Source: a virus
Strand: one strand, 5' to 3'
Virus record (IMG/VR): IMGVR_UViG_3300018416_000024
Location: 1 to 49,357 of that record
DNA: 49,357 nucleotides
The notes beneath the pieces are model-generated. The model was given only the letters and a program-made list of their open reading frames with translations. It did no database searches and was not told the origin of the DNA. Of this stretch, positions 2,050-40,319 are shown piece by piece (the stretch's first letter is position 1; each line of letters starts with the position of its first letter). Position numbers and translations under genes: made by a program.

Positions 2050-2158
2050 ATGGATTGCATATGATGCGGATGGATATGTGCTAATTATATCACACTCAAA
2101 AAAGATTGTGGCACGCCATTTACAAGATTTAGGATATGATGTAATATATAATCTGTAA
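2003..2158 (+). CDS. 51-aa overlapping small protein
   Basis: A 51-aa ORF runs in the +1 frame across the end of the DUF3310-like gene. It begins MPSFNSTFTIAKKKYKWIAY and ends RHLQDLGYDVIYNL. Its stop (2156-2158) lies only two bases before the first predicted tmRNA acceptor sequence. The sequence alternates basic, aromatic and hydrophobic residues like a small folded domain. No family was recognised, and no strong ribosome-binding site is visible, so it may depend on coupling. Confidence 0.5.
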   Translation: MPSFNSTFTIAKKKYKWIAYDADGYVLIISHSKKIVARHLQDLGYDVIYNL

Positions 2159-2160
2159 GC

Positions 2161-2420
2161 GTTAATAACGAATGTATGGACCGCGGGGCAGTACCGCGCT
2201 GCTCCACCATAAACACACTGAGACGTGCAAGCGTCAGTAAGTCTAAGTAGGCTCGCAACCTTGAGCAGCAGTGTGTTTTTGATGGGGCAGAAATAGGATC
2301 GACATGTATTCTAGTTTACAAAATACAAATGCAAACGATAATTTTGCACCATCTGGTTACGCGCTAGCCGCATAATACAGGGGGTTGGCCACTTACCTAG
2401 CAACAGAAAAGTGGTTTTAT
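2161..2420 (+). ncRNA. ssrA: Circularly permuted (two-piece) tmRNA
   Basis: The acceptor piece comes first: T stem CGCGG/CCGCG (2182-2186/2194-2198), acceptor strand CTGCTCC, discriminator A and encoded CCA (2207-2209). An intervening segment follows, closed by a perfect 10-bp helix (2211-2220/2269-2278). The coding piece starts GGGGCAG at 2284, which pairs with CTGCTCC (one G-U). P2 pairs 2303-2311 with 2170-2178. The tag frame at 2331-2375 reads ANDNFAPSGYALAA then TAA. A pseudoknot (2384-2387/2401-2404 with 2388-2392/2411-2415) follows. The order and the ANDN...ALAA tag are those of alphaproteobacterial two-piece tmRNA. The 7-nt T loop GGCAGTA departs from the usual TTCRANY. The 5' and 3' ends are approximate. 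Confidence 0.9.
2211..2278 (+). other. tmRNA intervening (processed-out) segment
   Basis: Between the acceptor CCA and the coding-piece GGGG lies an approximately 70-nt segment bounded by the inverted repeat AAACACACTG/CAGTGTGTTT. Two small hairpins lie inside: GACG/CGTC at 2222-2234 and GCTC/GAGC at 2251-2266. In permuted tmRNA precursors this loop joins the tRNA-like 3' and 5' ends and is removed by tRNA-processing enzymes, leaving two RNAs. That role is inferred from known permuted genes. Confidence 0.75.
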
Positions 2421-2446: not shown

Positions 2447-2839
2447 ATGAAATTCGCAGCAATTGCAGCAGCCGCACTTGTAACGGCAACATCTGTCTCA
2501 GCTAATGAGATTGGTGCAACAGGCATCTCTTGGGGTGTAGAAACAGAAGCAGCGTATACACTTAACGACGCAGCTGGTAACGATGTAGAAGATTTTGGTG
2601 TAAAAGTTACTCCTGAAATCGGATACACAATGTTTGGTGTAGGTCTTACAGCCGATATGGACATTGCAATTTACAACAATGAAGAATTTAAACTGGACAA
2701 AGCATTTGATGATCCAAAGATCAACTTCGGTGCATCATACGAATTGTTCAATGGTCTTGCGTTGTTCGGTGAAACAACTTGGGATATCGACGGCGAAGAT
2801 GCTGTTGCAACAAAAGTTGGAGCTACTTTTAACTTTTAA
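2447..2839 (+). CDS. Exported beta-barrel-like outer-membrane protein
   Basis: This 130-aa protein has a clear Sec signal peptide (residues 1-19, cleavage near SVSA/NE). Alternating hydrophobic/polar strands follow, and the protein ends VGATFNF, a C-terminal phenylalanine as in the BAM-recognised signal of outer-membrane beta-barrels. It is short for a porin (about 110 mature residues, roughly eight strands). A strong terminator follows. A phage-encoded OMP could change host surface properties or block superinfection, which is inference. It lies immediately downstream of the tmRNA. Confidence 0.75.
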   Translation: MKFAAIAAAALVTATSVSANEIGATGISWGVETEAAYTLNDAAGNDVEDFGVKVTPEIGYTMFGVGLTADMDIAIYNNEEFKLDKAFDDPKINFGASYELFNGLALFGETTWDIDGEDAVATKVGATFNF

Positions 2840-2875: not shown

Positions 2876-2903
2876 GGGGGGCCATGGTAAGCCCCCCTTT
2901 TTT
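2876..2903 (+). terminator. Rho-independent terminator
   Basis: Stem GGGGGGC/GCCCCCC (2876-2882/2891-2897) with an 8-nt loop, followed by six T residues. It closes the tmRNA/outer-membrane-protein unit. Confidence 0.9.
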
Positions 2904-40241: not shown

Positions 40242-40319
40242 GGACACGTAGCTCAGCTGGATTAGAGCAAGTGCCTTCTAAGCACTAGGTCGAGGGTTCG
40301 AGTCCTTCCGTGTTCGCCA
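40242..40319 (+). tRNA. tRNA-Arg (anticodon UCU)
   Basis: A complete 78-nt cloverleaf: acceptor GGACACG/CGTGTTC, D stem GCTC/GAGC, anticodon stem AGTGC/GCACT with loop CTTCTAA (UCU reads AGA), T arm GAGGG-TTCGAGT-CCTTC, encoded CCA. No intron and no stem break except G-U pairs. AGA is a favoured arginine codon in AT-rich phage genes, so the tRNA probably supports translation of phage mRNAs in the host. Confidence 0.96.

Follow-up and report, generated by a model that had tools for sequence, protein, structure and literature searches.

The locus at positions 2161-2417 of the window (the window being the whole stretch of 49,357 nt analyzed here, IMG/VR virus record IMGVR_UViG_3300018416_000024) raises two questions: whether a gene with the piece order of a permuted tmRNA could work as such in a phage, and what is to be made of the intervening segment (IVS) between its two pieces. 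In established tmRNA biology, tRNA-processing enzymes excise this segment, so that an insertion in it need not impair the mature RNA. The reading preferred here, to which a probability of about 0.8 is given, is that the locus is a working phage permuted tmRNA that uses the SmpB of the host, and that its IVS is an exchangeable cargo slot.

A permuted two-piece tmRNA gene in the window

A permuted (two-piece) alpha-type tmRNA gene was found at window positions 2161-2417, with the acceptor piece first, the IVS in between and the coding piece starting at 2284 (Table 1). The initial annotation had proposed a permuted tmRNA with an alpha-type tag in a phage, and every element that it named was present where it had been placed, including the CTGCTCC/GGGGCAG pairing of the acceptor stem and the perfect 10-bp helix of the intervening loop. 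The covariance-model search that it had recommended was run, and two Rfam models matched above their cut-offs: alpha_tmRNA with 77.1 bits (cut-off 50, E = 2.7e-19; window 2116-2417) and tmRNA_permuted with 74.5 bits (cut-off 47; window 2158-2375). The acceptor stem contains the G3-U70 alanine identity pair. The 3' pseudoknot was read directly from the sequence, in the stretch covered by the 3' end of the alpha_tmRNA match. The initial annotation had noted the loop between the two pieces, with its 10-bp helix, but not as the unusual part of the gene.

Table 1. Features of the tmRNA gene and of the adjoining downstream gene (window coordinates)
Feature	Position	Strand	Remarks
P2 helix, 3' strand (acceptor piece)	2170-2178	+	GAAUGUAUG; pairs with 2303-2311, 9 pairs, 2 of them G-U
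T arm	2182-2198	+	Stem CGCGG/CCGCG, loop GGCAGUA; from Rfam alignments
Acceptor 3' strand	2199-2205	+	CUGCUCC; 7/7 pairs with 2284-2290, G3-U70 wobble included
Discriminator A	2206	+	
Encoded CCA	2207-2209	+	
IVS	2210-2283	+	74-nt structured RNA, putative cargo; predicted to be absent from the mature tmRNA
IVS closing helix, 5' strand	2211-2220	+	AAACACACUG; perfect 10 bp with 2269-2278
Hairpin within the IVS	2222-2235	+	GACG/CGUC
IVS closing helix, 3' strand	2269-2278	+	Partner of 2211-2220
RNase P site (expected)	just before 2284	+	Taken from established tmRNA biology
Acceptor 5' strand	2284-2290	+	GGGGCAG; opens the coding piece; from Rfam alignments
D-arm	to 2302	+	AAAUAGGAUCGA; follows the acceptor 5' strand; from Rfam alignments
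P2 helix, 5' strand	2303-2311	+	Pairs with 2170-2178
Linker from P2 to the resume codon	2312-2330	+	Short, without PK1
Tag reading frame	2331-2372	+	ANDNFAPSGYALAA; stop 2373-2375
3' H-type pseudoknot	2384-2414	+	GUUG/CAAC, 2384-2387/2401-2404; CCACUU/AAGUGG, 2389-2394/2409-2414
Gene for a 130-aa protein	2447-2839	+	Signal-peptide-like start; barrel-like by eye
Predicted intrinsic terminator	2876-2897	+	Closes the tmRNA-protein unit; 7 G-C pairs, then six T

Replacement and sharing of the intervening segment

Relatives were collected by scanning IMG/VR with a short coding-piece pattern and with an acceptor pattern (at least 120 matches each). After removal of duplicates, 202 permuted tmRNA genes were parsed, a few of which came from isolates and one from a MAG. 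The length of the IVS in these 202 genes ranged from 5 to 514 nt, and the IVSs of at least 40 nt fell into 72 sequence classes. Two relatives, L075 and L126, have acceptor pieces 98% identical and coding pieces 99% identical to those of the window, and each carries an IVS unrelated to that of the window: a 25-nt hairpin in L075 and a 229-nt segment with a gene for a 66-aa protein in L126. The IVS RNA of the window was itself found in other tmRNA genes with 84-92% identity, on backbones that are mostly divergent. It was 84-89% identical in L197, L198, L221, L242, L255 and L258-L261, where the coding pieces share 45-54% identity with the window, and 89% identical in L262, with a coding piece at 79%. 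When the core motif of this IVS was used for scanning, 11 contigs were obtained, and in 11/11 the core was located inside a tmRNA IVS. The borders of the segment, CTCCACCA and a GATGGGG start, were conserved. The high conservation of the IVS RNA could reflect strong constraint combined with descent of the whole gene, rather than exchange of the IVS only; the near-identical backbones with different IVSs argue against whole-gene descent alone.

Changes on both sides of a pair were observed in 5 of the 10 pairs of the closing helix (13 sequences) and in two pairs of the hairpin at 2222-2235, both of the latter from one sequence (L159). For helix and hairpin combined, 7/14 pairs had changed on both sides, and 0/500 shuffles reached any of the measures. 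Moreover, about 40 columns of the window-type IVS (flanks included), many of them unpaired, were invariant across divergent genes. Further internal pairs in the core, beyond the closing helix and the one hairpin, showed no covariation and were dropped. In the search of positions 2100-2460, no Rfam family other than tmRNA matched the core at E values up to 5, and no nested ORF was found in the window's own IVS; the cargo there is the 74-nt RNA.

The IVSs of classes 1 and 2 (e.g., L013, L045 and L151) are also structured RNAs, with a hairpin loop complementary to a downstream stretch, suggesting that they form H-type pseudoknots. One bacterial gene, L280 on a Bosea chromid, likewise has a closing helix of this kind, in an IVS of 95 nt; therefore, structured IVSs are not specific to phages, although exchange and nested genes might be.

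Genes nested in the intervening segment of relatives

An ORF was scored as nested when it had a Shine-Dalgarno-like site, started with ATG and covered at least 60% of the IVS. Such ORFs were present in 13 of the 35 classes of at least 100 nt, compared with 0.4 classes expected from dinucleotide shuffles and 0 on the antisense strand. Two or more members were available for eleven ORF families. Where these differed enough, substitutions fell mostly at third positions in nearly all families, and dN/dS (pN/pS where saturated) was mostly 0.05-0.35, with one pair at 0.49; the MEIIWH pair differed at one base, and several short ORF families had few substitutions. Most of the nested ORF families tested thus appear to be under purifying selection.

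The 66-aa protein was found nested in L126, L131, L174 and L271-L273, and its free-standing homologs in L274-L276 showed 71-74% identity. The tmRNA of L074/L264-L266 harbors in its IVS the gene for a 152-aa HNH endonuclease (PF01844, 25.9 bits, cut-off 21.4), and a different tmRNA, that of L267/L268, harbors a relative with 69% identity; by sequence, the family matches phage homing endonucleases. In the cultured phage Melnitz, all four records have the tmRNA in common, with an IVS consisting of GGAG, a spacer and a 54-codon ORF (its sequence begins MFKWLSKTRLVVITRDYF) that ends in the coding piece. In the record of Melnitz EXVC044M (MZ577097.1), this ORF lies at L285:784-948, where no CDS is annotated, and around the motif PKYL it resembles the ORFs in the IVSs of L012, L224 and L229. 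An unannotated permuted tmRNA was also found in Sinorhizobium phage Phosso (L284, PV764938.1); its 410-nt IVS showed no clear ORF, one example of several long IVSs in which none was evident, and no other Rfam match. Because many of the nested ORFs end in the coding piece, many are probably translated from the uncut precursor.

The HNH gene bears on a different account of the slot, in which endonucleases cut tmRNA genes that lack an insert and spread by homing, and all other inserts are remnants or hitchhikers. A gene of a phage homing-endonuclease family in the IVSs of two divergent tmRNAs, and swapping at fixed borders, are what such an account would lead one to expect. However, a single endonuclease family was found, on 5 contigs, and most cargos are without a nuclease gene. 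In some lineages, the presence of the HNH gene points to homing; as the origin of the slot in general, homing is held to be rather unlikely.

The variation of the IVS might instead be neutral filling, with any sequence that has a closing helix tolerated and the structured RNAs idle. The 25-nt hairpin IVSs in genes 98-99% identical to that of the window fit this explanation, and they suggest that maturation does not depend on the 74-nt RNA, since the genes are otherwise nearly the same. Yet the nested ORFs are confined to one strand and appear to be under purifying selection, and the window-type IVS keeps its invariant columns across divergent genes, which makes neutral filling unlikely. An exchangeable cargo slot within a working tmRNA is still the reading preferred.

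Constraint on the tmRNA pieces and the short form without PK1

Acceptor pair 3 was G-U in 167/167 of the short- and long-form genes counted, with a parser that favored U70 without requiring it. Compensatory changes were found at acceptor pairs 5 and 6 and at T-stem pairs 1 to 4 (60 short-form relatives for the T stem); because the parser accepted only fully paired stems, the evidence lies in the variety of the pairs and not in the pairing. In the 60 short-form genes, 69% of P2 cells were paired, compared with 57% when partners were shuffled. Tags ended in AA in 160 of the 165 cases in the family. Synonymous variation was observed at tag codons 4, 7, 11, 13 and 14, and the last Ala codons were GCA, GCT, GCG and GCC across 48 closely related tags. 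Judging from these codon changes, the tag is constrained as a protein. With compensatory changes in the acceptor and T stems, a constant G-U at position 3 and synonymous changes in the tag codons, the tmRNA gene of the window is not a chance resemblance.

Some members of the family depart from the common form. In the four contigs L029, L103, L109 and L119, the tag is unusually long (31 aa, ANDNVAQPKFMKKRNTFARKVGFTKGMALAA) and is conserved among them. L218 encodes a long tag of 20 aa (ANDNFKPELSFDFDGVLEAA) and also has a nested IVS ORF. On one contig (L245), there are apparently two permuted tmRNA genes, which differ in their acceptor stems and IVSs.

A pseudoknot (PK1) between P2 and the resume codon is usual in tmRNAs, although it does not define the base-paired core of the Rfam models. 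In the short forms, a median of 27 nt separates the D-arm from the resume codon (n = 56), and an H-type pseudoknot in this interval was possible in 0/56. The window gene, which has no PK1, was treated as a variant of the permuted alpha-type tmRNA; the missing PK1 could weaken or change trans-translation. In this respect, the short form is a natural experiment on the extent of messenger domain that a tmRNA requires. ARAGORN detected 77/107 long-form genes but 4/60 short-form genes, missing 56/60 of the latter. It also missed the tmRNA of the window, because this is a short form and not because the gene is absent. A scan of 84,980 bacterial and archaeal genomes gave a single occurrence of the exact short-form pattern, on a small MAG contig. 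This contig (L149, from an Opitutia MAG) was rejected as a bacterial short form: the standard tmRNA of the MAG sits on another contig, and the genes of L149 look phage-like by eye.

An RNA without PK1 might serve as a decoy that binds SmpB or occupies stalled ribosomes and thereby inhibits the trans-translation of the host, and a tag-less phage tmRNA of this kind, the inhibitory fragment of the DS6A type, is described in PMC11915505 and PMC4131195. A decoy needs no tag, yet the LAA-ending tag frame is conserved with synonymous changes. Decoy action is accordingly held to be highly improbable, and a tmRNA working with host factors is preferred.

Phage context and host factors

Upstream of the tmRNA gene lie an endolysin-like gene and a DUF3310 gene. 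The 130-aa protein encoded downstream had no Pfam or PHROG match. In a search with this protein alone, a permuted tmRNA was found directly upstream in 24/24 of the loci fetched. The number of terminator-like sites, among which the one predicted to close this unit is counted, equaled the shuffle mean. The sole tRNA in the window is a tRNA-Arg(UCU) at 40242-40319.

Among the genes of the phage are those for a gp32-type ssDNA-binding protein, PhoH and ribonucleotide reductase (nrdA/B). These genes are consistent with the T4-like phage proposed by the initial annotation, but the record from which this assignment is made is a fragment of 49 kb. Neither the window nor any of 14 related contigs (38-183 kb) yielded an SmpB gene; therefore, the tmRNA must use the SmpB of the host. 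The earlier idea that the gene protects the phage when host SmpB is limiting fits poorly with this result, and its other suggestion, the rescue of ribosomes by the phage tmRNA, is plausible from the sequence. That the gene is a passenger or an integration-site relic without function in the phage, as might be supposed since ssrA is often the att site of prophages and islands (discussed in PMC9004378), can be dismissed almost outright, given a complete gene with compensatory changes, a conserved tag and 24/24 linkage to one neighboring gene.

Proposed explanation

The architecture of the gene, the conservation of the tag, the replacement and sharing of the IVS and the coding nature of the ORFs nested in relatives were established by comparing sequences; the processing, charging and tagging, the mechanism of swapping and the expression of the cargo are what we infer. 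Host tRNA-processing enzymes would cut one precursor into an acceptor RNA with its CCA end at 2209 and a coding RNA starting at 2284, and the acceptor and P2 helices would hold the two RNAs together. The AlaRS of the host would charge the tmRNA by way of G3-U70, and the charged tmRNA would enter stalled ribosomes with host SmpB and EF-Tu, so that nascent chains would receive ANDNFAPSGYALAA, an LAA tag of the ClpXP type.

Because it is discarded at maturation, the IVS would be a tolerated site of insertion. In these phages it has probably become an exchange slot, with the closing helix and the conserved ends CTCCACCA and GATGGGG as its limits, in which cargos (structured RNAs, small-protein genes and an HNH homing endonuclease) would be swapped by recombination or homing; the conserved borders and the sequence of the closing helix could supply short homology for recombination. 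The chances are about even that the IVS of phage permuted tmRNA genes acts as a mobile slot for cargo, in the manner of an intron but without splicing, which genes and functional RNAs can enter and leave with no harm to the tmRNA, and that the 74-nt RNA of the window is one such mobile cargo with its own role in infection.

The findings suggest that other genes can be accommodated within a core RNA gene with no need for splicing. For phages, the slot would be a place where accessory cargo is co-transcribed, and standard tools are likely to have overlooked dozens of small phage proteins and structured RNAs that still lack annotation. Since phage Melnitz, which carries such a tmRNA, is in culture, the cargo slot is open to direct testing.

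Comparison with known systems

The initial annotation regarded carriage by a T4-like phage as uncommon, which did not hold: at least 120 viral contigs fit one pattern, and PMC9004378 (2022), with a count based on ARAGORN, lists the tmRNA of Melnitz and, in phage genomes, 53 two-piece tmRNAs, of which 50 are marine or aquatic. The tmRNA database of 2025 (PMC11915505) gives 79 phage tmRNAs and 11,946 permuted tmRNAs.

With the alphaproteobacterial two-piece tmRNA (RF01849; merged permuted model RF04321), the window gene shares the order of the pieces, the T-loop GGCRGUA, G3-U70, the ANDN start and LAA end of the tag, and the 3' pseudoknot. Unlike that tmRNA, it has no room for PK1 in the linker between P2 and the tag, and the phage IVS is exchanged between genes and carries genes in relatives. 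The Melnitz/pelagimyophage tmRNA (PMC9004378) is likewise an alpha-type two-piece tmRNA of a T4-like marine phage, and its IVS also has an ORF, seen in the present analysis and not in the annotation of the record. However, it is a long form with a glutamine riboswitch downstream, whereas the window gave no riboswitch hit and has an RNA cargo in its IVS.

Insertions in the IVS are already known, because PMC11915505 notes, among permuted tmRNAs, one IVS with a tRNA-Ala and one with a repetitive element; in contrast to the phage IVSs described here, neither protein genes in the IVS nor exchange between genes is reported in its passages on the subject. A search of mainly open-access literature turned up no account of protein-coding genes within the IVS of a tmRNA. 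The HNH protein of L074/L264-L268 belongs to the same family as homing endonucleases of T4-like phages, but its gene occupies the part of a permuted tmRNA that is discarded, rather than an intron, an intein or an intergenic site. The two-piece tmRNA of phages is thus ordinary as a class, and the exchangeable, gene-bearing IVS looks new.
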